NCBI GenBank assembly: GCA_031127075.1
Contig: JARIFA010000003.1
Span: 1-64,000 of the forward strand
DNA length: 64,000 nt
Source: Gemmatimonadota bacterium
GTDB lineage: Bacteria; Gemmatimonadota; Gemmatimonadetes; Gemmatimonadales; Gemmatimonadaceae
Direction: 5' to 3'
The notes beneath the pieces are model-generated. The model was not told where the DNA came from and made no database searches. It was given only the letters and a program-made list of their open reading frames with translations. The stretch's first letter is position 1, and every line of letters starts with the position of its first letter. A program made the translations under genes and the position numbers. Shown here piece after piece: positions 25,872 to 48,526 of this stretch.

Positions 25872-25940
25872 GCAGAGAACATCGGTGCGCCGGAGGTCCG
25901 CGTCCACCGCGCGCCGTCCGGCTCAGCAGGCCCAACGCTC

Positions 25941-25969
25941 TTACCACTCCGGCGCGGCCGTGGTAGAGT
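25941..25969 (+). promoter_or_regulatory. Candidate sigma70-type promoter TTACCA-N17-TAGAGT
   Basis: -35 at 25941-25946, -10 at 25964-25969, exactly 17 bp spacer, 31 bp before ATG 26001. Confidence 0.4.
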
Positions 25970-26000
25970 CTGGTCGATTCCACCGCCCACGAGGCCTGCT

Positions 26001-29000
26001 ATGCGATCCGTGCGTCCCCCCGTGCTCGCCCTCCTCCTGCTCGCCATCGCCTCCGGGCTGGCCGCGCAACCGACCCCCACCGCCCCCGCGCGCCCCGCCG
26101 CCGACCAGTGGCGCGGCCTCCATTGGCGCAACATCGGGCCGGAGGGGAACCGCTTCGCCGCCGCCGCCGGCGTCGTGGGTGATCCGCTCACCTATTTCGT
26201 CGGCTCCGCCTCGGGCGGCGTCTGGAAGACCACCGACGGTGGCGTGAACTGGCGTCCGACCTTCGACGCGCACCCGGTGCAGTCGATCGGCGCGCTCGCC
26301 GTCGCGCGGTCCGACCGCAACGTCGTCTGGGCCGGCACCGGCGAGGCGCACATCCGCAGTCACATCTCGGTCGGGCAGGGGATCTACAAGTCCACCGACG
26401 GCGGTGAGAGCTGGCAACTGATGGGGCTCGAGAAGACGGCGCGCATCGCGCGGATCGTCATCCACCCCACCAACCCCGACATCGTGCTGGCCTGCGCGCT
26501 CGGCCACGCCTACGGGCCGCAGCAGGAGCGCGGCGTCTATCGCACCACCGACGGCGGCGCGACCTGGACCCGCGTCCTCTTCGTCGACGAGAACACCGGC
26601 TGCTCCGATCTCGCGATGGACGCGACGAACCCGCGCGTCCTCTTCGCGGGGATGTGGCAGGTCGAGATCCACACCTGGGGGCGCACCAGCGGCGGCCCCG
26701 GGAGCGGGCTCTTCGTCTCGCGCGACGGTGGCGTCACCTGGACGCGCCTCCGCGGCAACGGCCTCCCCACCAAGCCGCACGGCAAGGTGGCGCTCGGCCT
26801 CTCGCCCTCGGACCCGAACCGCGTCTACGTGATGATCGAGACGGGGGACGGGATCCCGTGGAACGGGCAGGAGACGGAGAGCGGGCAGCTCTGGCGTTCG
26901 GAGGATGGCGGCCGGCGCTGGGCGCTCGTCAGTCGCGACCGTAACGTGATGGGACGCGCGCACTACTACTCGCGGATGGCGGTCGCGCCGGATGATCCCG
27001 ATGAGGCCTACTTCCTGACCGCATCGTACGCGAAGACGATCGATGGCGGGCGCACCGTGGAGGTGATCAGCCGCGGTCAGGCCCCCGGCGGCGACCACCA
27101 CGACATCTGGATCGACCCGACGAACGCCGACCGGCAGATTGTCGCGCACGACCAAGGCCTCTCGATCACGCAGAACCGCGGGCGCAGCTGGTACCGTCAG
27201 CGCCTCAGCAACGCGCAGCTGTACCACGTCACGGTCGACAACAACATCCCGTACAACGTGCTGGGGAATAAGCAGGACGAGCCGACGTATCGCGGTCCGA
27301 GCAACTCGCGGCTCGCTGGCGGGCGGATCCTCCGCGGGATGTGGCACGCGGTGGGCGGCGGCGAGAGCGGGTGGGCCACCCCCGATCCGGTCGATCCGAA
27401 CATCATCTGGTCCACCGCCTCGGGCTCGGGGATGGTCGGCGGCATCGTCGTCCGCTTCGAGGAGGATCGCCGGCAGTTCCGCACCGTCGAGGTGTGGCCG
27501 CAGCAGTCGAACGGACCGGCGGATGGCGTGAAGTACCGCTTCGTCTGGGATGCCCCGCTCACCATCTCCCCGTACGATCACAACACGATCTACACGGGGA
27601 GCCAGCACGTGCACCGCACGCGGAACGGCGGGCAGAGCTGGGAGGTCATCTCGCCGGACCTGACGCTCAACGACCGCTCGCGGATGGGGAGCTCGGGCGG
27701 CCTCACGCCTGACAACATCGGGGTCGAGTACGCGGGCGTGGTGTACGCGATCGCCGAGTCGCCGGTGGAGCAGGGCACCATCTGGGTGGGGACGAACGAC
27801 GGGCTCGTCCAGCTCACGCGGGACGACGGAAAGACCTGGACCAACCTCACGCGGAACCTGCCCAACCTGCCGGTCTGGGGCTCCGTGCGGAGCATCCATC
27901 CCTCGAAGTACGACGCGGCAACCGCCTACCTGACGGTGGATTTCCACCAAGTCAACAACCGCGACCCGTTCGTGTATCGCACCACGGACTACGGTCGCAC
28001 CTGGAAGGCGATCACCAATGGCCTGCCGCGTAACAACCTGAGTTACGCGAAGGTCATCCTTGAGGACCCGGTGCGTCGCGGGTTGCTCTACCTTGGGCTC
28101 GAGAACGGCATCTATGTGTCCTTCGACGCGGGGGAGAGTTGGCTCCCGCTGCAGAACGACCTCCCGGCGGCCCCCGTCTCCGGCATCCAGGTCCAGACGC
28201 ACTTCAATGACCTCGTGATCTCGACCTACGGGCGCGGCTTCTATATCCTCGACGATGTCACGCCGCTGCAGCAGCTGACCCCTGAGGTGATGGGGGCGGC
28301 CGCGCATCTCTTCCAGCCGCGGGCCGCGTATCGCTTCCGGAACATCACGGCGCCGTCGAGCACCTACGATGACCCGACGACGGGGGAGGACCCCCAGTAC
28401 GGTGCCTCGCTCAACTATTGGTTGAAGGCGCCGGTGGCGGAGGCGCCCAAGGTCGAGATCCTCGACGCGGCGGGCCGGGTGATCCGCACCCTCCGCGGCC
28501 CGAACGCGGCGGGGATCAACCGGCTCCACTGGGACCTGCGCGACGAGCCCGGGAAGGCGGTCCGGCTCCTCACCCCGCCGATGTACGTGCCCGATGTCGT
28601 CGTGCCCGCGGCAGGGCGCGAGGCCCCCGGCACCGCGCGCGTCTCCCTGCTGATGGCGCCGGGGACCTACACGGTGCGCCTCACCGTCGGTGGCGCGACG
28701 CAGACCCGGAGCCTCGAGGTCCGGAAGGACCCGAACTCGTCGGGCACGGTGGCGGAGATCGAACAGCAGTTGCGGATGACCGCGGCGATCCGCACCGAGA
28801 TGGACCGGGCGGCCGACGCCGTGGCGCGCATCGAGTCGGTGCGGGTGCAGCTCGATGCGCTGGGCCGCGCGGTGACCGACGCCGAGGTGCGGCGGTCGGC
28901 ACAGGCGCTCGGCGCGAAGCTCGTCGAAATCGAGATGAGCCTCGTGGATCTGCGGCTCACCGGGAACGGACAGGATGGCGTCCGCTTCGGTAGCAAGCTC

Positions 29001-29216
29001 ATCGGGAAGCTCGGCTACCTCGCCAACGGGCTCGGCAACGCCGACTTCCGGCCCACCGACCAGCAGGTGGAGGTGCAGGGGATCCTCGGCCAGCAGCTGC
29101 GGGAGCAACTCACGGCGCTCGATGCGGTGCTCGTGGCGGATCTGGGGGCGCTCAACGCGCTGCTGCGGCAGAAGGGGATCTCGCACGTGGGTGGGGCACC
29201 GGCGATCGTGCCCTGA
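26001..29216 (+). CDS. VPS10/sortilin-like BNR glycosyl hydrolase-type beta-propeller protein
   Basis: Signal MRSVRPPVLALLLLAIASGLAAQ; VGSASGGVWKTTDGGVNWRP, YKSTDGGESWQLMGLEKTARIARI, YRTTDGGATWTRVL, THFNDLVISTYGRGFYILDDVTPLQQL. Confidence 0.9.
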   Translation: MRSVRPPVLALLLLAIASGLAAQPTPTAPARPAADQWRGLHWRNIGPEGNRFAAAAGVVGDPLTYFVGSASGGVWKTTDGGVNWRPTFDAHPVQSIGALAVARSDRNVVWAGTGEAHIRSHISVGQGIYKSTDGGESWQLMGLEKTARIARIVIHPTNPDIVLACALGHAYGPQQERGVYRTTDGGATWTRVLFVDENTGCSDLAMDATNPRVLFAGMWQVEIHTWGRTSGGPGSGLFVSRDGGVTWTRLRGNGLPTKPHGKVALGLSPSDPNRVYVMIETGDGIPWNGQETESGQLWRSEDGGRRWALVSRDRNVMGRAHYYSRMAVAPDDPDEAYFLTASYAKTIDGGRTVEVISRGQAPGGDHHDIWIDPTNADRQIVAHDQGLSITQNRGRSWYRQRLSNAQLYHVTVDNNIPYNVLGNKQDEPTYRGPSNSRLAGGRILRGMWHAVGGGESGWATPDPVDPNIIWSTASGSGMVGGIVVRFEEDRRQFRTVEVWPQQSNGPADGVKYRFVWDAPLTISPYDHNTIYTGSQHVHRTRNGGQSWEVISPDLTLNDRSRMGSSGGLTPDNIGVEYAGVVYAIAESPVEQGTIWVGTNDGLVQLTRDDGKTWTNLTRNLPNLPVWGSVRSIHPSKYDAATAYLTVDFHQVNNRDPFVYRTTDYGRTWKAITNGLPRNNLSYAKVILEDPVRRGLLYLGLENGIYVSFDAGESWLPLQNDLPAAPVSGIQVQTHFNDLVISTYGRGFYILDDVTPLQQLTPEVMGAAAHLFQPRAAYRFRNITAPSSTYDDPTTGEDPQYGASLNYWLKAPVAEAPKVEILDAAGRVIRTLRGPNAAGINRLHWDLRDEPGKAVRLLTPPMYVPDVVVPAAGREAPGTARVSLLMAPGTYTVRLTVGGATQTRSLEVRKDPNSSGTVAEIEQQLRMTAAIRTEMDRAADAVARIESVRVQLDALGRAVTDAEVRRSAQALGAKLVEIEMSLVDLRLTGNGQDGVRFGSKLIGKLGYLANGLGNADFRPTDQQVEVQGILGQQLREQLTALDAVLVADLGALNALLRQKGISHVGGAPAIVP

Positions 29217-29278
29217 GCCCCACCGGGCGGGGGTGAGAGCACTCCGCGCTCGGCCCGTCGTAGCAGGCGCATTCCAGG

Positions 29279-29310
29279 CGGCCCCCGTCCCGACTCCGGG
29301 GCGGGGGCCG
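29279..29310 (+). terminator. Terminator-like hairpin
   Basis: CGGCCCCCG-TCCCGACTCCGGGG-CGGGGGCCG, perfect 9-bp outer arms with additional inner pairing, 63 bp after stop 29216. Confidence 0.5.
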
Positions 29311-29317
29311 TCATCTC

Positions 29318-29346
29318 TTGACAGCATTGCTGGACAGCCGCATCGT
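29318..29346 (+). promoter_or_regulatory. Candidate promoter TTGACA-N17-CATCGT upstream of the glycan-binding lipoprotein
   Basis: Consensus -35 at 29318-29323, 17-bp spacer, weak -10; abuts the operator palindrome. Confidence 0.5.
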
Positions 29347-29366
29347 TTGTTCGGTTGTCGAACAAA
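29346..29366. promoter_or_regulatory. Palindromic operator TTTGTTC-N7-GAACAAA (copy 1)
   Basis: TTTGTTCGGTTGTCGAACAAA; same motif and spacing as 41561-41581. Confidence 0.8.
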
Positions 29367-29426
29367 GCAGGGTGTTGGCCGCCCTGCCGGCAGGTGGTGT
29401 CCGGATCCCCTCTCCTGGAGTCCCTC

Positions 29427-32400
29427 ATGCGTTCCCCCCGCCTCTCCGCCGCCCTCCTTGCGGCCGTCCTCTCCCTCTCCGCCTGCGAACGCGAGGGTGG
29501 GACCGGTCCCGCCCCGATGCCGAACGACCCGACGGTCTTCACCGATGGGTTCGGCGAGGGGGTGTCGTGGCAGGCCTTCCAGGGCTCGCTGCTGACCGCG
29601 ATGTCGATCGACAACGCGGTCAAGTACCGCGGATCGGCGTCGCTCAAGATCACGATCCCTGACGCCGGGGACCCGAACGCCGGGTATTCTGGTGGCGCGT
29701 TCGTCTCGGACGTCGCGCGCGACTTCTCCACCTACGACGTCGTGTCGTTCTGGGCCAAGGCGAGCGTCGCCGCGACCCTCAACGTCGCCGGTCTCGGCAA
29801 TGACAACACCGGGACCTCGAAGTACACCGCCGAGCGCACGGACCTCGCGTTGACGACGGCGTGGCAGAAGTACACGATTGCCATCCCGTTGGCGTCGAAG
29901 CTCACGGTGGAGAAGGGCCTCTTCTTCTTCGCCGAGGGCCCCGAGGCGGGGAAGGGGTACACGCTCTGGCTCGATGACATCCAGTTCGAGACGCTGGGCA
30001 CGCTGACCAATCCGCGGCCGGCGATTACCGGCGGGACGTATGAGCAGGAGGTCGGAGACTCTCGGACGATCGTCGGGACGACGCTCACCGTCGCGGTGGG
30101 CGGGGTCGACCAGACCGTCGCCGCGTCGTCGGGCTACTTCACCTTCAGCTCCTCCAACACCGCCGTCGCGACGGTCACGAACGGCGTGATCAGCGTCGCC
30201 GCGCCTGGCGCGGCGACCATCACCGGCAGCTTGGGCGCCGTCTCGGCCGCCGGCAGCATCGCCCTCACCGCAGCCGCCCCGCCGGCGGTCGCCGCGCCGA
30301 CCCCGTCGCGGCTCGCGGCGAACGTGATCTCGCTCTTCAGCGGCGGCTACACGAACCGGACGATCGACACCTGGTCGGCGACCTGGGACGTTGCTGACGT
30401 CGCGGATGTGACGATCGCCGGCAACGCCACGAAGAAGTACAGCAACCTGTCGTACGCGGGGATCGAGTTCACGACGGCGCCGATCGACGCGACGCAGATG
30501 ACCGGCCTCCACCTCGATCTCTGGGTGACGCAGGCCGCCGGCTTCAAGATCAAGCTCGTCGACTTCGGCGCCAATGGCGTCTTCGGCGGCGGCGATGACA
30601 AGGAGCACGAGGTCACGCTGAACAGCAGCTCGTCCCCGGCGATCACCACCGGGGCGTGGAACTCCGTCGACATCCCCTTCTCGGCGTTCACCGGCCTGAC
30701 CACCCGCGGCAAGCTCGCGCAGATGATCATCGCCGGGAGCCCGACGGCGTATCTCGACAACGTCTACTTCTACAAGATCCCGCCGCCGCCGGGCCCGACC
30801 GCTGCGGCCGCGACGCCGACGAATCCGGCCGCTGGCGTGATCTCCCTCTTCAGCAACGCGTACACGGACCGGGTGGGAACCACGTGGTCGACGGTGTGGG
30901 ACCAGGCCGACGTCGCCGACGTGCAGGTGGCCGGCGACGACGTGAAGAAGTACACGAATCTGGTCTTCGCGGGCATCGAGCCCGCATCGCCGATCGATGC
31001 CTCCGGGATGTCGACCCTGAACTTCGACCTTTGGACGCCGGACTCCATCTCCGGGACGTCGTCGTTCAAGGTCAAGCTCGTCGACTTCGGGGCCAACGGG
31101 AGCTTCGGCGGCGGGGATGACACCGAGCACGAGCTCACCTTCACCCCGACCTCCACGCCGGCGTTGACCAACGGCAGCTGGGTGCGGTTCGCGATTCCGC
31201 TGACGAACTTCACCGGGCTCACCTCGCGGGCGAAGCTCGCGCAGATGATCCTCGTGAGCACGATGCCGACGGTGTATCTCGACAACATCTTCTTCTCGGC
31301 CGATGCGCCGGCGGTGGCCGCACCGACGCCGACGAAGGCGGCGGGCGACGTCATCTCGCTCTTCAGCAACGCGTACACGAACCGCACCGTGGATACCTGG
31401 TCGGCGGCGTGGGACCAGGCGGACGTGTCCGACGTGAGCATCGCTGGCAACAGCACGAAGAAGTACTCGGGCCTCGTCTTCGCGGGGATCGAGTTCACCA
31501 CCGCGACGATCGACGCGTCGGAGATGACGCACTTCTCCTTCGACCTCTGGACCCCGGAGGCGACGGCGGCGCCGGCCGAGTTCAAGGTCAAGCTCGTCGA
31601 CTTCGGCGCGAACAATGCGTTCGGCGGCGGGGATGACAAGGAGCAGGAGCTGGTCTTCTCGGCGACGTCCACCCCGGCGCTCGAGACGGGGAGCTGGGTC
31701 ACCTTCGACATCCCGCTGAGCGCCTTCACCGGGCTGACCACCCGACGGAACCTGGCGCAGCTGATCATCGTCAGCGCGCCGAGCGCGCGGACGCTCTTCA
31801 TCGACAACATGTACTTCTATAAGGCGCCGGCGCCGTCGGGACCTCAGGTCTCCGCGGCGGCTCCGACCGGGGCAGCGGCGTCGGTCATCTCGCTCTTCTC
31901 GAACGCGTACACGAACCGGCCGAACACCACCTGGTCGACGGTGTGGGACCAGGCCGACGTCACCGACGTCGCGGTCGGGTCCGACAGCGTCAAGAAGTAC
32001 TCGAACCTCGTCTTCGCGGGGATCGAACCGGCCGCGCCGGTCAACGCCGGGGCGATGACGCACTTCAACTTCGATCTCTGGACGCCGGACGCCGTGACCG
32101 GCACCTCGACCTTCAAGCTCAAGCTCGTCGACTGGGGGGCCGGCGGCTCCTTCGGCGGCGGCGATGACACCGAGCACGAGCTGACCTTCACCACCAGCTC
32201 CTCTCCGGCGCTCGCGACGGGGACCTGGGTCCGCTTCAAGGTCCCGCTTTCGAGCTTCACGGGGATGACGGGCCAGACGAGCATCGCCCAGTTCATCATC
32301 TCGGGTTCGCTCGGGACGGTCTACCTCGACAACATCTATTTCTCGGCGGATGCGCCGGCGATCGCCGCACCGACCCCGACGTATGCCGCGGGTGACGTGA

Positions 32401-32873
32401 TCTCGCTCTTCAGCAACGCCTACACCAATCAGAACGTGAACACCTGGTCGGCGGAGTGGGATTCGGCCGACCTCGCGGACGTGCAGGTGGCCGGGAACGA
32501 CGTCAAGAAGTACTCGAACCTGGTGTTCGCCGGCATCGAGTTCACCTCGTCGACCGTCAACGCGACCGCGATGACGCACTTCTCGTTCGATCTCTGGACG
32601 CCCGAGGCGACGACGGCCGCCTCGGAGGTCAAGGTGAAGCTCGTCGACTTCGGCACGAACAACGCCTTTGGCGGCGGTGATGACAAGGAGCACGAGCTCG
32701 TCTTCTCCACCACCTCCACCCCGGCGCTCGCCGGCGGGGCGTGGGTGACCTTCAACATCCCGCTGGCGCAGTTCACCGGCCTCACGACCCGCGGCAACCT
32801 GGCCCAGCTGATCCTCGTGAGCGCCCCGAGCGCTCGCACCGTCTTCATCGACAACGTCCTGTTCCACAAGTAG
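29427..32873 (+). CDS. Secreted lipoprotein with N-terminal jelly-roll-like domain, Ig-like (Big_2) domain and five tandem glycan-binding-like modules
   Basis: Lipobox MRSPRLSAALLAAVLSLSAC; SSSNTAVATVTNGVISVAAPGAATITG; five VISLFS...DNxxF modules. Confidence 0.85.
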   Translation: MRSPRLSAALLAAVLSLSACEREGGTGPAPMPNDPTVFTDGFGEGVSWQAFQGSLLTAMSIDNAVKYRGSASLKITIPDAGDPNAGYSGGAFVSDVARDFSTYDVVSFWAKASVAATLNVAGLGNDNTGTSKYTAERTDLALTTAWQKYTIAIPLASKLTVEKGLFFFAEGPEAGKGYTLWLDDIQFETLGTLTNPRPAITGGTYEQEVGDSRTIVGTTLTVAVGGVDQTVAASSGYFTFSSSNTAVATVTNGVISVAAPGAATITGSLGAVSAAGSIALTAAAPPAVAAPTPSRLAANVISLFSGGYTNRTIDTWSATWDVADVADVTIAGNATKKYSNLSYAGIEFTTAPIDATQMTGLHLDLWVTQAAGFKIKLVDFGANGVFGGGDDKEHEVTLNSSSSPAITTGAWNSVDIPFSAFTGLTTRGKLAQMIIAGSPTAYLDNVYFYKIPPPPGPTAAAATPTNPAAGVISLFSNAYTDRVGTTWSTVWDQADVADVQVAGDDVKKYTNLVFAGIEPASPIDASGMSTLNFDLWTPDSISGTSSFKVKLVDFGANGSFGGGDDTEHELTFTPTSTPALTNGSWVRFAIPLTNFTGLTSRAKLAQMILVSTMPTVYLDNIFFSADAPAVAAPTPTKAAGDVISLFSNAYTNRTVDTWSAAWDQADVSDVSIAGNSTKKYSGLVFAGIEFTTATIDASEMTHFSFDLWTPEATAAPAEFKVKLVDFGANNAFGGGDDKEQELVFSATSTPALETGSWVTFDIPLSAFTGLTTRRNLAQLIIVSAPSARTLFIDNMYFYKAPAPSGPQVSAAAPTGAAASVISLFSNAYTNRPNTTWSTVWDQADVTDVAVGSDSVKKYSNLVFAGIEPAAPVNAGAMTHFNFDLWTPDAVTGTSTFKLKLVDWGAGGSFGGGDDTEHELTFTTSSSPALATGTWVRFKVPLSSFTGMTGQTSIAQFIISGSLGTVYLDNIYFSADAPAIAAPTPTYAAGDVISLFSNAYTNQNVNTWSAEWDSADLADVQVAGNDVKKYSNLVFAGIEFTSSTVNATAMTHFSFDLWTPEATTAASEVKVKLVDFGTNNAFGGGDDKEHELVFSTTSTPALAGGAWVTFNIPLAQFTGLTTRGNLAQLILVSAPSARTVFIDNVLFHK
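30324..32870 (+). repeat. Five in-frame tandem modules, about 171-178 aa each, in A-B-A-B-A order
   Basis: Module starts at 30324, 30837, 31350, 31884, 32397 (513, 513, 534, 513, 474 bp). A-type: DTWSAxWD/IEFTT/GGGDDKExE; B-type: TTWSTVWD/IEPA/GGGDDTEHELTF. Confidence 0.9.
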
Positions 32874-32912: not shown

Positions 32913-34169
32913 ATGACCCGGTCTCCGGGTCCCCGGGTGGGCGCGTCGGACTTCCGTCCGGCGCGCCCACCGTCGTTGGCGGACGCCGTCCTGCGGCTTA
33001 TCTGGGACGAGGAACGCATCTCTCGGGCCGACATCGCCCGGCGGACCGGCCTCTCCCGGTCCACCGTCTCTGAAATCGTGGAGACCCTTCTCGCCACCGG
33101 CCTCGTCTCGGAGGCCGGGGTCGGGGACTCGCGTGGCGGGCGCCGCCCGATCGTCCTCGAGTTCCAGGACGCGGCCGGGGTGGTCCTCGGTGTCGACATG
33201 GGGGCGGCGCATGTCGCGGTGATCCTGACCGACCTTCGGGGACGGATCCTCGCCGCCGAGCGGACGGCGCATCCGGTGCAGGGGGATCCGGACGGGGCTC
33301 GGGCGTTCATCCGTCGCCTCGTCGAGACCTGCCTCGCCGCCGTGGGGCCGCTCTCGGCGCGTCGGCTCATCGGCGTCGGGATCGGCGTCCCCAGCCCGGT
33401 GGACGTCCGGCACCCCGATCGGCTCTCGCCGGTCGCGATGCCCGCGTGGGAGGGGCGGCACGGCCTCGACACCCTCCTCGCGAACCTCGGCGTCCCGATC
33501 CTCGTCGACAACGACGCCAACCTGGGCGCGCTCGCCGAACGCTGGTGGGGCGCGGCACAGGGGCTCGATCACTTCGCCTACATCAAGATCGCCACCGGAA
33601 TCGGGGCCGGGCACGTCATCGACGGCCGGATCCACCGCGGGGCGAGCGGCGTGGGTGGCGAGATCGGACACGTCGCGATCGACCCGCGCGGCGAAACCTG
33701 TAACTGCGGGAATCGCGGCTGCCTCACCACCTTCGTCGGGGCGCCCGCGCTGGCGGCACGGATCCAGGCGCTCCGGCCCGTCTATCCGCAGAGCCTCCTT
33801 GCTGACGGTCCGCCGACCGTCGCGCGGCTCGAGGAGGCGGCACGCGCCGACGATCCGCTCGCCCTGCAGGTGATCCACGAGGTCGCCGAGCACCTGGGCG
33901 TCGCGATCGCCGGGATGCTCAACCTCCTCAACCCGGCGGCCGTCATCCTCGGAGGGCGGATCGCCGGCCTCGGGGAGAAACTCATCGCGCCGCTGCGCGC
34001 CACGGCGCTCCGGCGCACCTTCGTGCCGGCCGCAGCCGCGACGGAGATCCGCGCCAGCACGCTCGGCTCCCACGGAATCGCCCTCGGGGCCGCGACCCTC
34101 GTCCTCGACGCCGCGTTGCGCGATCCGCGACTCTTCCGGCCCGTCGCGCGAGCACGAACCGGCGGCTGA
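32913..34169 (+). CDS. ROK family transcriptional regulator
   Basis: HTH ISRADIARRTGLSRSTVSEIVETLLATGLVSE; ROK sugar-kinase-like fold with zinc/ROK motifs VGGEIGHVAIDPRGETCNCGNRGCLTTFVG. Confidence 0.93.
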   Translation: MTRSPGPRVGASDFRPARPPSLADAVLRLIWDEERISRADIARRTGLSRSTVSEIVETLLATGLVSEAGVGDSRGGRRPIVLEFQDAAGVVLGVDMGAAHVAVILTDLRGRILAAERTAHPVQGDPDGARAFIRRLVETCLAAVGPLSARRLIGVGIGVPSPVDVRHPDRLSPVAMPAWEGRHGLDTLLANLGVPILVDNDANLGALAERWWGAAQGLDHFAYIKIATGIGAGHVIDGRIHRGASGVGGEIGHVAIDPRGETCNCGNRGCLTTFVGAPALAARIQALRPVYPQSLLADGPPTVARLEEAARADDPLALQVIHEVAEHLGVAIAGMLNLLNPAAVILGGRIAGLGEKLIAPLRATALRRTFVPAAAATEIRASTLGSHGIALGAATLVLDAALRDPRLFRPVARARTGG

Positions 34170-34172
34170 GCC

Positions 34173-35711
34173 CTAGGCCGCGGCCCGCCGCCGCTCCAGC
34201 TCGGCGCGGACCTCGTAGGCTTTCGCTTCGGTGAGCGGGTATCCCGCCATCACCCAGATGGCGACGCCCGACGCGAGGAAGGGAATCCAGACGTCAGCGA
34301 CGCGCAGGAGGTAGAGCGTCCGCGCCGACTGGGCGCCACCGAGCGCCACGTCGAACCCCGTCGCGTTGAGCACCACCCCGCCGAGCGCCAGCGCGACCGC
34401 CATCCCGACCTTCACGACCCACCAGAAGATCGAGCCGAACATCCCCTCCCGGCGCTGCCGCGTCGCGAGCTCGTCCGTGTCGACGACGTCGGCCATCATC
34501 GCCCCCATCAGGGTGAAGAGGCCGCCGAGTCCGAAGGCGAGGAAGGGCGCCGGGACGAGGAGGAGCCAGGGGCGCGCCGGGTCGTAGCAGACCCATTTGA
34601 GGGCGTAGCCGACCATCGAGAGGGCGGTGGAGACGAAGAAGGCGCGCTGCTTGCCGATCCGCGTCGCGAGCCAGGTGATCAGGGCGATGACGCCGAAGGT
34701 CGAGATGGCGCCGAGGGTGCCGGCGTAGCCGGTGTAGCGCGCGCCGAGCTCCTGGTTCCCGCCGAAGACGTAGTAAATCACCACGTACGACTGGAACGAC
34801 GAGATCATGATGAAGCCGTTGAACACGAGAAAGGTGGCGATGCAGAGCCGGAGATAGGGCCCCGTGCGCAGCGTCGCGGCGAAGCCGCGGAAGAACTCCC
34901 GGGTGTTCCGCTGGACCGCGGCCCACGCCCCCGCCGTCGCCTGTGCCGCTGGCGCCGCGGCGGTCGCCGCCGCCGTCACCATCCGTTCACGCAGGACGAT
35001 GGCGGGGATCACGCCCACCACGCAGGCCACGATCCCCACGCCGATGGCGAGTCCGCGCGCGCCGTCGGCGGGCGTGGGGAACCACGCCGTGTTCGTCATG
35101 ATCCAGAGGAACCAGGGGGAGACGAGGTAGGCGAGCTGCGCGATGAAGTTCTGCACGCCCATCAGCCGCGTGCGCTCGTGGTAGTCCGGCGTCAATTCGT
35201 AGCCGAGGGCGACCCACGGCGTCGCGAAGATCGTGTACCCGACGTAGAAGATCGTCGAGCCGATCGTGAAGTACCAGAAATACCAGAGCTCGCTCTTCCC
35301 GACGGGGAGGAGCCAGAGGGCGATGAAGGAGAGGCCGGAGAAGAGCGCGCCGATGAAGATGTATGGCCGCCGCCGGCCCCACCGTGAGCGCGTCCCGTCG
35401 GAGATGAATCCCATGATGGGATCCGTCAGCGCATCGGTGACGCGGGGGAGGGCGCTGGCGAGCCCGACCAAGGCGGGGTTCATCCCGAAGCCGAGGTTCA
35501 GGATGATGAGCATCCCGCCGATCGCGGCGGCGAGGGTGTTGTTGACGAAGCCGCCGAGGCCGTACGCCACCTTGTGCGCGAACGGGATCCGGTCGGCCTC
35601 CGGCGTCACGTGCCGCGGTGTCTCGGGCCCGGTCGACGGGCCGAGGCGACGGTGCCACGCGGAGAGAGCGACCCGGAAGAGCCCGATGCGTCGCGGCGAG
35701 GACTGGCTCAT
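34173..35711 (-). CDS. MFS transporter, GPH (glycoside-pentoside-hexuronide):cation symporter type
   Basis: About 12 TM segments; RVTDALTDPIMGFISDGTRSRWGRRRPYIFIGA motif. Start MSQSSPRR at 35711 overlaps the GH16 stop. Confidence 0.9.
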   Translation of the reverse strand: MSQSSPRRIGLFRVALSAWHRRLGPSTGPETPRHVTPEADRIPFAHKVAYGLGGFVNNTLAAAIGGMLIILNLGFGMNPALVGLASALPRVTDALTDPIMGFISDGTRSRWGRRRPYIFIGALFSGLSFIALWLLPVGKSELWYFWYFTIGSTIFYVGYTIFATPWVALGYELTPDYHERTRLMGVQNFIAQLAYLVSPWFLWIMTNTAWFPTPADGARGLAIGVGIVACVVGVIPAIVLRERMVTAAATAAAPAAQATAGAWAAVQRNTREFFRGFAATLRTGPYLRLCIATFLVFNGFIMISSFQSYVVIYYVFGGNQELGARYTGYAGTLGAISTFGVIALITWLATRIGKQRAFFVSTALSMVGYALKWVCYDPARPWLLLVPAPFLAFGLGGLFTLMGAMMADVVDTDELATRQRREGMFGSIFWWVVKVGMAVALALGGVVLNATGFDVALGGAQSARTLYLLRVADVWIPFLASGVAIWVMAGYPLTEAKAYEVRAELERRRAAA

Positions 35712-36499
35712 CGGATCTCCTGATAGACGCGGACCCAATCCACGAGCAGGGTCTGCGGGAACACGGTCGACCCATCCGGCGGACCGATGAAGTTCCCGCC
35801 CACGGCGAGATTCAGAATGATGAAGAATTCGTGGTCGAAGACCCAATCCCCGGGCTGGTCGCCCTTCGCCACGACGTGGTAGAGGGTATCGTCGAGGTAG
35901 AACCGGATGTCCCGCGGGCTCCAGTCGACGCGGTAGACGTGGAAGTCGGTGTCGAGCCGTCCGTCGAGGAGCGTGTACTTCCGTGTGACCGCCGCGCCCC
36001 CCGAGTAGCCCGGGCCGTGCAAGGACCCGTGCACGATGCTCGGCTCCTGCCCGCGATACTCCATGATGTCGATCTCGCCCGACCGCGGCCAGCCCACGGT
36101 CGGGAAGTTCGCGCCGAGCATCCAGAAGGCGGGCCAGAGCCCCTTGCCCGTCGGCATCCGCATCCGGGCCTCGAAGCGCCCGTAGCGGAACTGCTTCCGC
36201 CCGAGGGTCTTCAGACGCGCGGAGGTGTAGCCGCGATTGAGATACGATTCCTGACGCGCGGTGATGGCCAGGTGACCTTCCCCGTCGAGGGCGGAGTTCG
36301 CCCGCCGATCGGTGTCGAATTCGAGTTGCGCGTTCCCCCAGTCGGTGCCGATGTCCGCGATCCAGACCTGCGGGTCGGGTGCCGCGCCGGCCGCTCCCTC
36401 GAACTCATCCGACCAGACGAGTGAATACTCAGGCTCGGTCGCGCCGGAGCAGGCGGCGAGGAGGAGGCAGAGGCTCAGGAGGGCAGGGCGACGGCGCAC
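35708..36499 (-). CDS. GH16 family glycoside hydrolase (beta-glucanase/laminarinase-like)
   Basis: Lipobox LCLLLAACSG; GH16 catalytic motif GEIDIMEYRG; VYRVDWSPRDIRFYLDD; FFIILNLAVGGN. Confidence 0.93.
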   Translation of the reverse strand: MRRRPALLSLCLLLAACSGATEPEYSLVWSDEFEGAAGAAPDPQVWIADIGTDWGNAQLEFDTDRRANSALDGEGHLAITARQESYLNRGYTSARLKTLGRKQFRYGRFEARMRMPTGKGLWPAFWMLGANFPTVGWPRSGEIDIMEYRGQEPSIVHGSLHGPGYSGGAAVTRKYTLLDGRLDTDFHVYRVDWSPRDIRFYLDDTLYHVVAKGDQPGDWVFDHEFFIILNLAVGGNFIGPPDGSTVFPQTLLVDWVRVYQEIR

Positions 36500-36541: not shown

Positions 36542-38362
36542 TCAGCGCGGCGTGAGGCCGTGGCCACGCGGGAACCGGACGGGCGCCCGCCCGTCAGGCG
36601 CGGGCGCCGTGGCCGGCCAGTCGAGCGGGAGCACACCGGTGAACGGGTGGGCGCCGAACAGGACGTCGGCGACCCCGGCGCCCTCCGAACCCGGCAACCA
36701 GCCCGCGATGAACGCCTGTGACGCGGCCAGTTCGCGGTCCACCAGCAGCGGACGGCCGGAGAGGAGGATCGTGACCACCGGGATCCCCTTGGCCCGGATC
36801 GCCTCGATCGTCGCGAGGTCCTCCGGATGCCGCGTCGCAAGCTCCAACGTGGTGCCGTACGGCTCGAGGTTCACGGTGAAGAGCCCACCGGGAAGAGGCG
36901 GAGTGATCCGCCCCCCCGGACGAATGTCCCCCATCCCCTCGGCGTACGGCATCTCGCCGATCACTACCACCGCCACATCGTGCTGCGTCGGGTCGGCCGC
37001 GGACCCATCCATGCTGAGCGTCGCCGCCGGCGCCACGGCACGGATGCCCTGCCAGATCGACGTCCCGCCGACGATCGCATCGTTCCCGTGCGTCCCCTGC
37101 CACGCGGCGCTGAAGCCGCCGCACTGATGGCTGATGTCGTCGGCGTGCTTGCCCGCGACGAGGATGCGCTGTCCAGCGCGCAGCGGCAGCACGTCGCCCG
37201 CGTGTGCGAGCAGCACCTGCGATCGACGCACCGCCTCGCGCGCCACGGCACGATGCGCGGCGCTCCCGAACGTCTCGCTCTCCGCCCACGGGCGCTCCGC
37301 CGGCCGGACGCGGTCGAGGAGGCCGGCCCGCACCTTCACGCGGAGGATCCGCCGCACCGCATCGTCGATGCGGGCCATCGGGATCGCGCCCGACGCGACG
37401 CCGGCGGCGAGGCCGGTGAGCCGCCGACGCCAATCGGCGGCGCACATCAGCATGTCGACGCCCGCGTTCACCGCGAGCACGATCGCCTGGTCGAGATCGG
37501 CCGCCACCTGATCGACGCCGTCCCAGTCGGAGACGACGAGGCCGCTGAAGCCGAGCCGCTCCTTGAGCACCCCGGTCAGCAGCGCACCGTGCGCGTGGCA
37601 CTTCGTCCCGTTGACGCTGTTGAAGGACACCATCACCGTCTGCACCCCGGCGTGCAGTGCGGCACGGTACGGTGGGAGATGCGTGTGTTCGAGGGCCTCG
37701 GGGGAGAGCGCCGCATCCCCCTGGTCGATCCCCTCCGTCGTCGCGCCATCGCCGATCCAGTGCTTGGCGCAGGCGAGGACGCCATCGTCATCGAGGGTGC
37801 CCTGCATCCCACGCACGAACGCCTCGGCGTACGCGGCGACGAGCGCGGGATCGTCGGAGAAACTCTCGTAGGTGCGGCCCCACTGTACGTTTTGCACGAC
37901 GGCGAGCGTCGGGGCGAAGTTCCAGTCGAGTCCCGTGGCGAGAACCTCGCGCGCGCAGATGCGCGCAAGCCGCTCGATGAGCTCCGGATCCCGGGCCGCC
38001 CCGAGGCCGATGTGATGCGGGAAGATCGTCGCGCCGCGCACGTTGGCGTGGCCGTGCACCGCATCGACCGCGTACAGGAGCGGGATCGCGGCGCGGTCGT
38101 CCGTCGGGTCGGTCGAGGCGGCCCAGAGGGCGTCGTTGAGCGCGACCCAGTCGGCCGGGGTGTTGGCGCCGGGCACCGAGCCCGACCCGCTCAAGACGGC
38201 GCCGAGGTGATACGCGCGGACGTCTTCGGGGGTCGTCGATGCGCGCTCGCTCATCATCATCTGCCCGAGCTTCTCCTCGAGCCGCAGGCGGGCGAGGATC
38301 GCCTCGACGCGCTCCTCGACCGCCGCGGGGGCGGTCGGGCGGGGGAGGGTGGGCGCGCTCAC
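36542..38362 (-). CDS. GH3 family beta-glucosidase
   Basis: KLGQMMMSERAST, CAKHWIGDGATTEGIDQGDAAL, LGFSGLVVSDWDGVDQ (nucleophile Asp). GTG start 38362 overlaps the upstream stop. Confidence 0.93.
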   Translation of the reverse strand: MSAPTLPRPTAPAAVEERVEAILARLRLEEKLGQMMMSERASTTPEDVRAYHLGAVLSGSGSVPGANTPADWVALNDALWAASTDPTDDRAAIPLLYAVDAVHGHANVRGATIFPHHIGLGAARDPELIERLARICAREVLATGLDWNFAPTLAVVQNVQWGRTYESFSDDPALVAAYAEAFVRGMQGTLDDDGVLACAKHWIGDGATTEGIDQGDAALSPEALEHTHLPPYRAALHAGVQTVMVSFNSVNGTKCHAHGALLTGVLKERLGFSGLVVSDWDGVDQVAADLDQAIVLAVNAGVDMLMCAADWRRRLTGLAAGVASGAIPMARIDDAVRRILRVKVRAGLLDRVRPAERPWAESETFGSAAHRAVAREAVRRSQVLLAHAGDVLPLRAGQRILVAGKHADDISHQCGGFSAAWQGTHGNDAIVGGTSIWQGIRAVAPAATLSMDGSAADPTQHDVAVVVIGEMPYAEGMGDIRPGGRITPPLPGGLFTVNLEPYGTTLELATRHPEDLATIEAIRAKGIPVVTILLSGRPLLVDRELAASQAFIAGWLPGSEGAGVADVLFGAHPFTGVLPLDWPATAPAPDGRAPVRFPRGHGLTPR

Positions 38363-41300
38363 CAGGCCACCGTCAGGTAGCTGCGGAGCTCCCACTCGCG
38401 CCCGAGCGGGAAGCCGGGGGCACCTGCGTCGCACACGGTGTCGCCGGCGGCATTCGTCGTGGTCGTCGGGCAGTAGCGCGGGGAGTAGCGATCGAGGGTC
38501 CGCCAGGTGCCGCGGATCCCGAACTTCGTCTCGGGGAGGTCGAACCACTGCGGCTTGCCGAAGACGTAGGCGACGTCGGCCATCAGCTGCGTCGGGAAGG
38601 TGAGGTTGAAGTCGCGATGGTAGTCGTAGGGCCCGAAGTCGTTGAACTTGGCGGCACCGATGATCTTGAGCGGGCCCGAGACGAGCCGCAGGTCGCCACC
38701 GGCGCGCGTGACCAGCCGCTGGCTGTCGCCATTCGGTTCGGCCTTCCCGCCGTACGCGTTCACGATGAAGCGGAGGTCGCGGCCCACGCGGGCGATGGTG
38801 CGCGCCCGGATCTCCCAGAGGTCGCGCCCCGGCGTCGAGGCGGGGAAGGCGAATGGGGTGCGGCCGTCGGCGAGGATGCCGATCGCCGCATCCATCCCCG
38901 TCGGCATGTGCTTGTACGTGTAGGCGACGCTCGCCGCGAAGCGTGCGTCCTCGCGGACGTCATTGTCCCACTGATACATCCAGGTCGCGGGCGTCGGATC
39001 CCACGTCAGCAAGAGCTCGCCCGCCGCCATCTCCCGGTTCGCCCGCACGACAAACGGGTCACGCAGTACGTTCCGCAGGCGCGCCGGGGCGGGGGCGCCA
39101 CGCGGGATCGGCCCCACGAGCGGCTGCTGCACGAGAATGTTCGGGGCGATCTGCAGGTTGCCGATGGAATAGGTCAGCCCGGTCATCGCGTTCCACTGAT
39201 TGCTCATCCCCGTGTCGCGGAGCCACCACCCGGTGAAGGTCTGCACCGCGGTGGGCCCGCCATCGGCCACGAGCCCCATCAGGGCGCCCTGCGCATACCA
39301 GTTCACGCGACCGCGAGAGAACGACAGCTTCGCCTTCGCGCCGAACGCATCGCTCGGCCGGATCTCGTCGCCGAGCACCTGGTAGCTCCCGGGTGCGCCC
39401 TCGACGCGCTGGAAGGTCTCGCCGACGCGCGTGGACCCCGCCCAGATGCCACCGACGTCGACGCCCACGCCGAGCAGGGTGGTGGCGAGGTGCAGGGAGA
39501 GGCGCCGCGTGGGCGGCAGCGGGATCGCGAGAGAGCTCGTCGTCGCGCCGGCCGGGATGCGCGCGAGGTCCTCGTGGTAGAGGCCCGTGACATCGATGCC
39601 GGCGATGCGCCGCCGGTACTTGAAGAGCGCGGCGGGGTTGGCGCCCCACCAGAGCTCTGGGCCGATCGCGACCTTCAGGCCCTCGAGGGCGCGCTTCCCG
39701 GCGATCTCCATGCCGAGCGGTGCCACCGCATTGTAGGTGTCGATGTTCCGGCCGTAGTTCGCTTCGCGATAGACGCCGAAGAAGTCGCCCTCGTAGCCCC
39801 AGTGGTAGTGGCCCGAGCGATTGAACGCCTCGAGACGGAAGTTGCGGGCGTCCCAGGTGACGTGCGCGCGGTACACCTTGAGCCGCTCCAGGCCATCGGT
39901 CGCGACGCCGCCGCCGGAGGTCAGCGCGAGCGTCCGTGAGCGGCCGCGGTTCTCGTAGAAGATCTCGTCAATCGGGTTTTCAGGGACGTGGCCGAGCACG
40001 TTCACCGCGAGGGTGGCCTGCAGGCGCTCCGAGGGCTTGGCCTCGAGCTCGACGAAGTACGACTCCATCCGGTCAAAGCCCCGGAAGGCGGGGCGGTCGG
40101 TGGGGCTCGGTGTGTCGGCGCTGGGTGTCCGGATCGCGGAGCCGCCCGTCGCGAAGTTCGTGAGCTCGAGCCGCATCCCCTTCAGGCGGAGGGGGGCCGA
40201 TTCCGCGCCGGCGCCGGCGCGCTCGGCACGCGCCTGCGCGGTGAGCGCGCCGGGGTCGATGGCCGCGAACTGTGCCCGCAGCGAGGCGCGCGTCGTCCCC
40301 GGCGCGTAGGGGTCGAGGGCGTGGATGCGCTGCAGCGCATAGTAGGCGGCGCGCGGGTACAGGTCGAAGAGCCCGCGGGTATCCGGTGGCCCCTTGGCCA
40401 CGATGCCCCACCACTCTTCATTCATGTTGTTCTCGCCGCGCACGAAATCGTGCGGGTAGGCGTCCGCGGGCCACGAGGCATTGACGTCGTGGATGTCGAG
40501 TCGCGATTCCTGGCCGAACTTCCACCAGCCGTCGCTCCACTGGAAGGTGAAGCCGCCGATCGCATTCCCGGGACGTCCCTGACCGGCGGCGTGCCCGTAG
40601 ATCTCCTCCCACTGCGAGATGAGATAGCGCGCCTGCGCCTCCTGATCTTCGCGTCCCTCCCGCTCGTTCCACGCGTCCGCGCCGAACTCGGTGAAGAGGA
40701 CCGGGATCCCGAGCTTCGCCTCGACCACGTCGAAGAAGTCGCGGAAGGAGGCGCCGCGATAGACGTTCGATCCGAGGATGTCGATCCCCTTCGCCTCCTG
40801 CGCGATGAGATCGATGTACTGCAGGTCGCCGTTGGCGTAGGCCACCGGATGCGCCGGGTCCGCCGCCTTCACGGCGCGCGCGACTTCGCCGACGAGCGAG
40901 TAGAGATAGCGCGCCCGGGCCGCGTCCCGCTCACCGACCGGGAGCGCCTCGGTCTCGGCTGAGCGCCAGCTCAGGCCGTAGTTGTTCTCGTTGCCGAGGA
41001 GCCAGAGGAGGAGGCCCGGCGTCCCGCGGAATTCCTGGACCAGCGCCATCACCTCGGCGGTGATCGCCGCCCGGACGCGTGGGTTGGAGTAGTCGGTCTG
41101 CGGCTGGTAAACGCCGTCGATCGTGACGCCGTAGCGTCCCAGCGCGTGGTTCAGGACCGTGTGGATCCCGTACGTCTCATAGATGTACTTGATCCAGCGC
41201 GGCGGGATGCCGGCGTAGACGCGGATCGCGTTGCCCCCCATCCGCCGGACGAGGGACATCTCCCGCTCGAGCGCCTCGATGATGAAGGCATCCGGCTGGG

Positions 41301-41517
41301 TCCAGAGCGCGTACGCGTAGTTCTCCCCAATCGGGATGTAGTCCCAGTTGACGCCGTTGATCATCAGGGGGCGTCCCCCGACGGTGAGCCGGAGTCCGGT
41401 CGAGTCACGGACGACGCGCACTGGCGCGTCCGGGGACTGCGCCGACGACGGCCGGGGGATCGCCCCCACCGCCAGACTGCCGACCAACAGGAACCGCCGC
41501 GCCAGATGCGACCACAT
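38359..41517 (-). CDS. Clan GH-A glycosidase fused to putative C-terminal outer-membrane beta-barrel
   Basis: Signal MWSHLARRFLLVGSLAVGAIPRPSSA; GVNWDYIPIGENY, GGNAIRVYAGIPP, LWLLGNENN (acid/base) and VLFTEFGADAWNE (nucleophile); from about 40200 downward, alternating amphipathic aromatic strands ending WELRSYLTVAW-stop. Confidence 0.8.
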   Translation of the reverse strand: MWSHLARRFLLVGSLAVGAIPRPSSAQSPDAPVRVVRDSTGLRLTVGGRPLMINGVNWDYIPIGENYAYALWTQPDAFIIEALEREMSLVRRMGGNAIRVYAGIPPRWIKYIYETYGIHTVLNHALGRYGVTIDGVYQPQTDYSNPRVRAAITAEVMALVQEFRGTPGLLLWLLGNENNYGLSWRSAETEALPVGERDAARARYLYSLVGEVARAVKAADPAHPVAYANGDLQYIDLIAQEAKGIDILGSNVYRGASFRDFFDVVEAKLGIPVLFTEFGADAWNEREGREDQEAQARYLISQWEEIYGHAAGQGRPGNAIGGFTFQWSDGWWKFGQESRLDIHDVNASWPADAYPHDFVRGENNMNEEWWGIVAKGPPDTRGLFDLYPRAAYYALQRIHALDPYAPGTTRASLRAQFAAIDPGALTAQARAERAGAGAESAPLRLKGMRLELTNFATGGSAIRTPSADTPSPTDRPAFRGFDRMESYFVELEAKPSERLQATLAVNVLGHVPENPIDEIFYENRGRSRTLALTSGGGVATDGLERLKVYRAHVTWDARNFRLEAFNRSGHYHWGYEGDFFGVYREANYGRNIDTYNAVAPLGMEIAGKRALEGLKVAIGPELWWGANPAALFKYRRRIAGIDVTGLYHEDLARIPAGATTSSLAIPLPPTRRLSLHLATTLLGVGVDVGGIWAGSTRVGETFQRVEGAPGSYQVLGDEIRPSDAFGAKAKLSFSRGRVNWYAQGALMGLVADGGPTAVQTFTGWWLRDTGMSNQWNAMTGLTYSIGNLQIAPNILVQQPLVGPIPRGAPAPARLRNVLRDPFVVRANREMAAGELLLTWDPTPATWMYQWDNDVREDARFAASVAYTYKHMPTGMDAAIGILADGRTPFAFPASTPGRDLWEIRARTIARVGRDLRFIVNAYGGKAEPNGDSQRLVTRAGGDLRLVSGPLKIIGAAKFNDFGPYDYHRDFNLTFPTQLMADVAYVFGKPQWFDLPETKFGIRGTWRTLDRYSPRYCPTTTTNAAGDTVCDAGAPGFPLGREWELRSYLTVAW

Positions 41518-45835: not shown

Positions 45836-48526
45836 TCACGGCGCCAACAGGAACCGCAGCGGCGTCTCCACCCGCTGCCGCCAAGCGCGCTCCGTGTGGT
45901 CCGCGCCCTCGAATAGCCGCGTCTGGAGTCGCGGAGCGGTGTACCCCTTCGCGCGGAAGACCGCCTCGGCCTTCGTCTGCAATTCGCCGTACGTGGCGTC
46001 CAATGACAGCGTCCCCCGGTCGAGATAGACGCGATGCGTCGCGGGGTCGGGCAGCTCTTGCCCGAGGTAGTCGATCAGCGCCCCTTCGCCGGCGGGCCAA
46101 TGCGTCGACAGCGCCGCCGCCGCGCCGAACACCTCGGGATACTCGGTCAGTCCGTAGAGGGAGATCACGCCCCCCATGCTCGATCCCATCAGCATCGTGT
46201 CGTCGCGGCCTGGGCGAGTCCGGAAGGTGCGGTCGATGTACGGCTTCAGTTCCATCACAAGGAACCGAAGATAGGCGTCGCCCAGCGGTCGGCCGGTGAT
46301 CGGTGGTAGCTCCGAGCCCATACTGAAAGCGCTGTCGGTCGCCGGAATCGCCTTGGTGGCCATGTACTCCTGCTGGCGACGCGACGAACTCCAGACGGCG
46401 ACCACGATCGCCGGCCGCACCTGACGCTCCGCGATGAGGCGGCCCAACGATTCATCCACGGCCCAGTCGACCCCGCTGGAGGCGGCGGCGGGGTCGAAGA
46501 CGTTCTGACCATCCTGAAGGTAGATGACCGGGTAGCGCGCGGCGGTGTCGCGCCCGTAGCCGGGTGGAAGCCAGACCTCCACATGACGTGACGAGACGTT
46601 CCGCGATGGGAATGCGCGAATCACCCGCCGGTCCCCGCTGACGCCGAGCGCTGGGCCCGGCACCTCACGGGCCGTGATGGGGAAGACGCACCCGGCCCGG
46701 CGCGGCAGCGCCACTACCACGGCATCGCCCTGAGGCTCCGGAGTGGCGCAGATCCCGAGGAGGTCCGCACCGGCGAGGCCGAGCGGGATCCGTAGCGTCG
46801 CGACGGCGGTGTCGTTGTTGATCGCCACCAGGGTGTTGCCGCGACGGTAGACCCACGCCTGTTCGGTCAGGAGGAGGGTCTCCGTTGCCTCGCCACGGAG
46901 GTCGGCCCGGTCGCCCCGGAGCTTCGTCAGGGCCTGCAGATGCGAAAAGAGCTGGTCCTCGTCCGGCGTGCGCCCGGTCGGTTCGAAGGCGTTCCGCGGA
47001 TCATCCGCCCAGCCGCCCGGGAAGTCACGTCGATTGTCCGGTTCGCTGCCGCCGGGCATCCCGATCTCATCGCCGTAGTAGATCAGCGGGGTGCCTCGAG
47101 TCGTCATCAGGACGGTCCACGCGAGCTTCAGCCCGTCGAGGGTGGCCCGGGGATCGCCGGTGAAGCGTGGGACGTTGTGGAGGCCGAGGAAGGTGACCAG
47201 TGCCGCCGGGTCTTTATAGAGGCGGTCGCGGGCGAGCATTTGCGCCACGCCACGGATCGAGCCGCCTTCCTGGAAGGCCGACCGAAGCGAATAGAACAGC
47301 GGGAAATCGAAGAGGGCGTCCACCCCGGTGTCGACCCCGTCGAACTGGGGCACGCCCCCCTGGAAGAAGGCGGTCATCGTCGGGTCGCCGTCGACAACTT
47401 CGCCGACCACCTTGAGCGTCGGGAATTCTCGCTTGATCGCCTTCGTCCACTCGCGCCAGAAGGTGCGCGGCACGTAGGGCCACGTGTCCTGTCGGATGCC
47501 GTCGAGGCCGGTCACCCCGACCCACCAGAGGGTATTCTGAATCAGGTACTGCCGGACCTCTGGATCGTCTTGGTTGAGGTCAGGCAGGACGTCGATGAGC
47601 CAGCCGTCAAGCGTCCCCTCTCGCATCCGCGCCGAGGCGTTCGGGTCGGTGAGGGTCCAGGTCTGCCACACGTTGGCGAGATGGCGCTCGGCGGTGCCGT
47701 GGAACCAGGTCGGCGTCGGCGGGTCGGCGACCCACGGGTGGTACGGCCCCGTGTGATTCGCGACCATGTCCATCACGACTTTGAGCCCCTTCGCGTGGGC
47801 GGAATCGACGAGCGCGCGGTAGCCGCCGAGCGAGCCGAGATGTTCGTCGACCTCGTAGAAATCGACGGCGCCGTAACCGTGGTAGTCGGTGATCGGCTGT
47901 CCGTCGTACGTCTCCTTGCGATTGAGCCCGTCGTGGCTGTCGTAGACGGGGTTCATCCAGAGCGTGGTGACCCCGAGGTCCTTGAGGTAGCCGAGGTGTT
48001 GCTGGACGCCGGCGAGATCGCCGCCGTGGTAGTAACGGCCCTTCGAACGATCGAGGAGGCCGGCGCCACCGGGGTCGTCATTCGACGGGTCGCCGTTCGC
48101 GAAGCGGTCGGGCATCAGCAGGTACATCACGTCGTTCCGGTCGAAGCCGCGGAAGCGGCCGGTCCGGACGAGCGGGGGCAGGACCTCGAACGTCGCGCTG
48201 TCGCGGCCCGCGCTCGTCACGACGGCGAGCGCGTACCGACCGGGCTTCACCGTCGGGCCACCCGGGAGGGTGACGTCCGTGAAGAGGGTGGTCCCCGTCT
48301 CGCTGATCTTCACGTTGGTGCACCGCAGGGCGCCGCACTCGAGCCGGGCTCCGCCGAAATGTTTCCCGCGCATCATCACCCGCACGGGATTGACCGTGGA
48401 GCCCTGCCACCAACTCGGCGGGTCGGTCTGCAGGACCTCGGGCGCCTGGGCGAGGAGCGGCGCCCCGACACTCAGGAGTGCCGAGAGGGCAAGCAGGCGA
48501 CGGAGCAGAGCCTGCGGAACGGTCAT
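45836..48526 (-). CDS. Secreted GH13 alpha-amylase family enzyme fused to C-terminal alpha/beta-hydrolase (esterase D/Fes-like) domain
   Basis: Cyclomaltodextrinase-type N-domain; GH13 MDMVANHTGPYHPW, DGIRQDTWPYV, VVGEVVDGDP; C-terminal VIYLQDGQNVFDP...TMLMGSSMGGVISLYG (GxSxGG). Confidence 0.88.
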   Translation of the reverse strand: MTVPQALLRRLLALSALLSVGAPLLAQAPEVLQTDPPSWWQGSTVNPVRVMMRGKHFGGARLECGALRCTNVKISETGTTLFTDVTLPGGPTVKPGRYALAVVTSAGRDSATFEVLPPLVRTGRFRGFDRNDVMYLLMPDRFANGDPSNDDPGGAGLLDRSKGRYYHGGDLAGVQQHLGYLKDLGVTTLWMNPVYDSHDGLNRKETYDGQPITDYHGYGAVDFYEVDEHLGSLGGYRALVDSAHAKGLKVVMDMVANHTGPYHPWVADPPTPTWFHGTAERHLANVWQTWTLTDPNASARMREGTLDGWLIDVLPDLNQDDPEVRQYLIQNTLWWVGVTGLDGIRQDTWPYVPRTFWREWTKAIKREFPTLKVVGEVVDGDPTMTAFFQGGVPQFDGVDTGVDALFDFPLFYSLRSAFQEGGSIRGVAQMLARDRLYKDPAALVTFLGLHNVPRFTGDPRATLDGLKLAWTVLMTTRGTPLIYYGDEIGMPGGSEPDNRRDFPGGWADDPRNAFEPTGRTPDEDQLFSHLQALTKLRGDRADLRGEATETLLLTEQAWVYRRGNTLVAINNDTAVATLRIPLGLAGADLLGICATPEPQGDAVVVALPRRAGCVFPITAREVPGPALGVSGDRRVIRAFPSRNVSSRHVEVWLPPGYGRDTAARYPVIYLQDGQNVFDPAAASSGVDWAVDESLGRLIAERQVRPAIVVAVWSSSRRQQEYMATKAIPATDSAFSMGSELPPITGRPLGDAYLRFLVMELKPYIDRTFRTRPGRDDTMLMGSSMGGVISLYGLTEYPEVFGAAAALSTHWPAGEGALIDYLGQELPDPATHRVYLDRGTLSLDATYGELQTKAEAVFRAKGYTAPRLQTRLFEGADHTERAWRQRVETPLRFLLAP

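Follow-up and report, generated by a model that had tools for sequence, protein, structure and literature searches.

A single open reading frame in a 64,000-nucleotide stretch of a Gemmatimonadota genome (contig JARIFA010000003.1; hereafter, the window) encodes a glycoside hydrolase (GH) joined to a predicted outer-membrane beta-barrel, and this fusion, P0001, is real and conserved. We propose that the protein is an outer-membrane beta-glucan channel that is independent of SusC/SusD and carries its own glucanase, which is the best reading of the data and to which we assign a probability of roughly 0.6.

The frame runs uninterrupted from an ATG at position 41517 to a TGA at 38361–38359 and encodes, in order, a signal peptide, a clan GH-A TIM barrel, a short helix linker, and a predicted outer-membrane barrel of ~610 residues (Table 1). 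A full-length AlphaFold2 model, for which the input was an alignment of 67 relatives, had a mean pLDDT of 82.3 and a pTM of 0.76; after the TIM barrel it placed two helices (residues 410–418 and 422–435), which lie within the ~44 residues that separate the GH domain from strand 1, and then ~22 long antiparallel strands (443–1051). The initial annotation had described one frame containing both hydrolase and barrel, and the open frame, the model and full-length homologues all agree with it; what it had called a short Ala/Gly linker is really a conserved helix motif, reading ARGDKAAL in aligned relatives. Because the same architecture is found at full length in ~110 relatives, we rule out a frameshift, a chimera or chance as the origin of the fusion.

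Table 1 Features of the fusion gene and its neighbours, in window coordinates.
Feature	Position	Strand	Basis
GH-barrel fusion protein P0001	38359..41517	(-)	1052 aa, one frame, full-length homologues
Sec signal peptide, residues 1–27 (...IPRPSSAQ)	41437..41517	(-)	Sequence reading; low pLDDT at 19–28
Clan GH-A TIM barrel, residues 33–398, nearest GH158	40324..41421	(-)	AlphaFold2; Foldseek; hmmsearch; Pfam
Catalytic acid/base Glu177 (GNENN; LLGNENN)	40987..40989	(-)	Invariant in 67 homologues; aligns with BuGH158 GNE motif
Catalytic nucleophile Glu277 (FTEFGAD; LFTEFGADAW)	40687..40689	(-)	Invariant in 67 homologues; aligns with BuGH158 ITEWG
Linker helix 422–435 between GH and barrel	40213..40254	(-)	AlphaFold2 full and barrel-only models; alignment
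Outer-membrane beta-barrel, residues 443–1052, ~22–24 strands, C-terminal ...LRSYLTVAW	38362..40191	(-)	AlphaFold2; Foldseek
Long conserved extracellular-side loop 568–628, His/Trp/Tyr/Asp rich	39634..39816	(-)	Mean conservation 0.83
GH3 beta-glucosidase	36542..38362	(-)	Pfam; GTG start overlaps fusion stop (GTGA)
GH16 beta-glucanase, lipoprotein-type signal	35708..36499	(-)	Pfam; sequence
MFS_2 (GPH-type) sugar transporter	34173..35711	(-)	Pfam; start overlaps GH16 stop (ATGA)
ROK-family regulator	32913..34169	(+)	Pfam
Lipoprotein with several CBM11-like repeats, candidate surface glycan-binding protein	29427..32873	(+)	Resembles family beside most homologues

The initial annotation had also suggested looking for this architecture in other Gemmatimonadota; when 300 of their genomes were searched with P0001, 44 contained matches, and nearly all of the strong ones were full length and in one frame. 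A wider scan of species genomes found at least 577 places encoding relatives, and the best 80 of these came from Gemmatimonadota, Bacteroidota, Rhodothermota, Ignavibacteriota, Calditrichota, KSB1, Zixibacteria, Eisenbacteria, Krumholzibacteria, Delongbacteria and others. These relatives measured 1020–1077 residues by the chosen starts, with contig-cut copies left out, and full-length homologues were ~50–96% identical.

Pfam places the enzyme half in GH2, but by sequence profile and predicted fold it appears nearest to the GH158 endo-laminarinases. GH158 endo-laminarinases ranked first in a Foldseek search with the full model (6PAL, E = 4e-14), and hmmsearch aligned part of the domain with 6PAL at E = 2.7e-9. 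Both catalytic motifs reported in the initial annotation are intact, as is the TIM barrel that holds them: E177 and E277, which correspond to motif residues E137 and E220 of BuGH158 (PMC7157763), follow beta4 and beta7, respectively, as in the clan GH-A layout of GH158. The GH158 enzymes (BuGH158, 6PAL; GH158(Pro), 9ORO) thus resemble the GH half of P0001 in fold, profile, catalytic Glu positions and occurrence in beta-1,3-glucan loci, but they are only ~15% identical to it, and BuGH158 has a C-terminal Ig-like domain and no outer-membrane barrel (PMC7157763). The Pfam match of P0001 to GH2 was marginal (Glyco_hydro_2_C at residues 44–285, 22.2 bits vs a cut-off of 21, E = 9e-5), and a Flavobacterium homologue had no match to the Pfam GH2 TIM-barrel profile at E 0.01. 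The N-terminal jelly-roll and Ig-like domains of GH2 type are absent, the TIM barrel in the AlphaFold2 model starting directly after the signal peptide. Beta-glucan, the substrate that the initial annotation had named, is the predicted substrate of this half, in keeping with the GH158-like fold and with the gene context.

The remainder of the protein is predicted to be an outer-membrane barrel, much as first supposed (~600 residues, 16–24 strands). DSSP assigned ~22 long strands, or 24 if the pair 601–607/614–619 is counted, and a barrel-only AlphaFold2 model (pLDDT 83.0, pTM 0.80) had the same strands as the full model. When Foldseek was run with the barrel-only model, the 50 best PDB hits were all outer-membrane barrels, including BtuB, FepA, AlgE, OccAB3, MOMP, OmpF and LptD, with TM-scores to single solved barrels of only ~0.3–0.4, which makes the strand number and the lumen uncertain; with the full model, TonB-receptor barrels appeared below GH158 (PfeA/FepA, E ~8e-9). 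Residues in the strands alternate, 72% being hydrophobic on one face vs 34% on the other, and P0001 also has the remaining hallmarks of an outer-membrane beta-barrel, namely a Sec signal, a C-terminal aromatic strand, and short turns and long loops on opposite sides. A soluble beta-sandwich or CBM C-terminus was ruled out by AlphaFold2 and Foldseek. Judging from these models, the class of the barrel is clear and its family is not: the last 600 residues of P0001 had no match in Pfam, and the barrel had no sequence match in the PDB. The PF00593 TonB-receptor barrel profile, which found 11 other proteins in a scan of the genome, did not match P0001, nor did Pfam detect an N-terminal Plug domain in it, which rules out a canonical TonB receptor and makes a role as a porin plausible.

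The fusion gene is part of a putative beta-1,3-glucan operon, in which it is followed on the minus strand by the genes for GH3, the GH16 lipoprotein and the MFS transporter. In the 46 related loci that span 16 kb or more, the most constant neighbours were GH16 (44 loci) and the CBM-repeat lipoprotein (43), followed by MFS (23), GH149 (22; assigned by 6HQ6, 1656 bits), GH3 (17), GH17 (12) and GH30 (9), and SusC/SusD occurred in only one. Seven of 22 carrier genomes had no SusD match anywhere, and in only one of the 22 did SusD lie less than 20 kb from the fusion. The window likewise has no SusC/SusD pair in the locus, as the initial annotation had stated, and the single SusD match of the source genome sits on another contig. 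The only TonB-dependent receptor barrel in the window (PF00593, 4099–5469) is 33 kb from the fusion. The CBM-repeat lipoprotein family varies greatly in repeat number among relatives and matches no Pfam model above the cut-off. A 2308-aa minus-strand ORF chosen by the gene caller (25941–32867) was rejected as antisense to real plus-strand genes. A large ORF on the plus strand beside the lipoprotein gene (25830–29216) has beta-propeller repeats of sortilin/VPS10-like type, and the glucan locus adjoins an 896-aa minus-strand ORF (45836–48526) in which a GH13-type alpha-amylase appears to precede an esterase-like domain.

This gene company also bears on whether the protein could export glucan or remodel the cell's own exopolysaccharide. 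BcsC and PgaA consist of a soluble N-terminal periplasmic domain and then a C-terminal outer-membrane barrel, the same domain order as in P0001, and AlgE was among the Foldseek matches. However, BcsC and PgaA have TPR repeats, 16 strands and a chain without a hydrolase, and they export together with synthases, whereas we saw no synthase among the conserved neighbours of the fusion, all of which are catabolic (GH16, GH17, GH30, GH149, GH3 and the MFS importer). We regard an export role as very improbable.

We propose instead that the module replaces SusC/SusD for the uptake of beta-1,3-glucan (laminarin-type) oligosaccharides. The surface lipoprotein with CBM-like repeats would hold the glucan while the lipoprotein GH16 cuts it; the plug-less barrel would admit the fragments, its conserved extracellular loops binding sugar; the GH158-like glucanase on the barrel's N-terminus, likelier periplasmic, would shorten the fragments as they arrive; and the MFS importer would take up the products, on which GH3 or GH149 enzymes would then act. 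Such a module would be like SusC/SusD in its proposed import of glycans across the outer membrane, in the kinds of its neighbours and in a barrel that resembles those of TonB receptors in Foldseek, but unlike it in having no plug, no SusD partner, no match to the Pfam barrel model and a hydrolase of its own. The locus could also be supplied by passive diffusion via other porins.

Some relatives consist of the hydrolase alone. Stand-alone GH genes were found in 10 of 396 Bacteroidota genomes, encoding ~430–475 aa where complete and 48–60% identical to the GH half; most adjoin GH149 and MFS genes, two (L144 and L147) lie just downstream of SusC/SusD, and some of the proteins keep the linker helix. 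In a GH tree, nine stand-alone rows were nested among fused ones, an arrangement that needs at least four changes. Downstream of the stop codon of one stand-alone gene (L149:2037-3626), a barrel remnant of 55 in-frame codons still reads as the barrel start (TTYSNTGIVITTQKE...FDHIQSLYFSIE). Together, the nesting and the remnant indicate that the fused form is the older state within the family and that the barrel was lost several times. In 247 Bacteroidota genomes there were no barrel-only homologues other than contig fragments and one remnant. Gain of SusC/SusD is not behind every barrel loss, since two stand-alone GHs (G566 and G657) are in genomes without a SusD match.

That lineages without the barrel keep the enzyme beside the same GH149 and MFS genes indicates that the enzyme can work alone, as it might if the barrel merely anchored the glucanase in the outer membrane and had no part in transport. 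We consider this unlikely: a lipid anchor would cost less, nearly all loci are without a SusC/SusD importer, and the barrel is conserved almost as well as the GH domain (0.68 vs 0.72). Moreover, mean conservation was 0.70 in the extracellular loops vs 0.66 in the strands, reaching 0.95 in loop 962–972. Loops as conserved as strands would be unusual for a mere anchor, and their strong conservation suggests a functional outer face. Loop 568–628, in which H570, H572, W573, D578, W623 and W624 are invariant in 67 homologues, is a candidate glycan-binding or constriction loop.

The side of the membrane on which the hydrolase resides was approached from the topology of the barrel. With the strands even in number and the last of them closing with ...LTVAW at the C-terminus, strand 1 would start on the periplasmic side, where the turns are mostly of 2–4 residues (exceptions, 840–859 and 986–997), the loops on the opposite side having 9–61. 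The GH domain joins strand 1 via helix 422–435 plus ~7 residues. Plain Sec signals, judged by reading the sequence, are present in five of nine stand-alone relatives and also indicate the periplasm. These features make a periplasmic GH domain somewhat the likelier arrangement, unless helix 422–435 threads the pore in the manner of an autotransporter, and the "surface-tethered" hydrolase of the initial annotation was not borne out by strand parity, turn and loop lengths or the signals of the stand-alone enzymes. In 109 non-redundant sequences, coevolution between the GH domain and the barrel favoured neither side for docking: the couplings fell on outer loops as well as inner turns and mainly reflected phylogeny, and the only credible signals were the Cys1016–Cys1029 pair and a weak hairpin signal.

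Surface display, with the helix passing through the pore of an autotransporter-like anchor and the glucanase outside, is in our view somewhat unlikely. It would be consistent with the position of the helix directly before strand 1, as in classical autotransporters, with the usual presence of surface glucanases in such loci, and with the conserved outer loops, which could serve as a docking face; type V autotransporters (EstA, NalP and PlpD types) likewise carry an enzyme passenger N-terminal to the barrel. Classical autotransporter barrels have 12 strands, and those of type V 12–16, whereas that of P0001 has ~610 residues and 22–24 strands, and autotransporter Pfam families had no match at E 1 among 35 members of the fusion family. 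We know of no type V autotransporter with a TIM-barrel GH passenger. The plain Sec signals and the linker helix retained in some stand-alone GHs also argue against display, as does a surface already served by GH16 and the binding lipoprotein.

Few polysaccharides in the sea are as abundant as laminarin, and loci for glucan use are usually found via the SusC/SusD pair. Extending the proposed channel with an attached glucanase beyond this locus, we suggest, more tentatively and as a possibility short of even odds, a class of SusC/SusD-independent importers: plug-less, possibly TonB-free barrels with a glucanase at the mouth and cutting coupled to passage, spread widely across Gemmatimonadota, Bacteroidota and nearby phyla, and unnoticed owing to SusC/SusD-based locus finding and GH2 annotation. 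If the fusion is the outer-membrane step in loci without SusC/SusD, many beta-glucan-using bacteria have been overlooked, and our findings suggest a route, so far neglected, by which many environmental bacteria may take up glucans from algae or fungi. The fusion would then also offer a testable model, in one chain, of hydrolysis joined to outer-membrane passage. A literature search largely limited to open-access papers returned no account of a protein that combines a GH with an outer-membrane barrel. For North Sea isolates, laminarin loci have been catalogued as SusC/SusD-bearing PULs (PMC6298971), and a survey keyed to that pair would miss loci of the fusion type. The available part of a report on Muricauda describes a laminarin locus of LuxR, "GH2", hypothetical/PKD, GH16, GH149, GH17, GH30, MFS and GH17 genes, in which the "GH2 beta-glycosidase" is described as GH2 only and a barrel is not mentioned (PMC13188888); the gene company and order are those of the Bacteroidota loci found here, so this protein probably belongs to the fusion family.

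A parallel at the inner membrane, which counts in favour of the channel-glucanase reading, is the MFS-GH17 fusion of the Formosa laminarin locus, proposed to couple hydrolysis and uptake there (PMC6246565). Like P0001 as we read it, this protein, present in Formosa and other marine Flavobacteriia, combines a transporter with a glucan hydrolase and is encoded in a laminarin locus, but it resides in the inner membrane, has 12 helices and carries its GH17 at the C-terminus; if our reading is correct, the two fusions would be paired in the same pathway. In L149, an MFS protein of 783 aa that is cut by the contig end (L149:8617-10968) exceeds the length of a plain transporter and may be an MFS-GH17 fusion as in Formosa.
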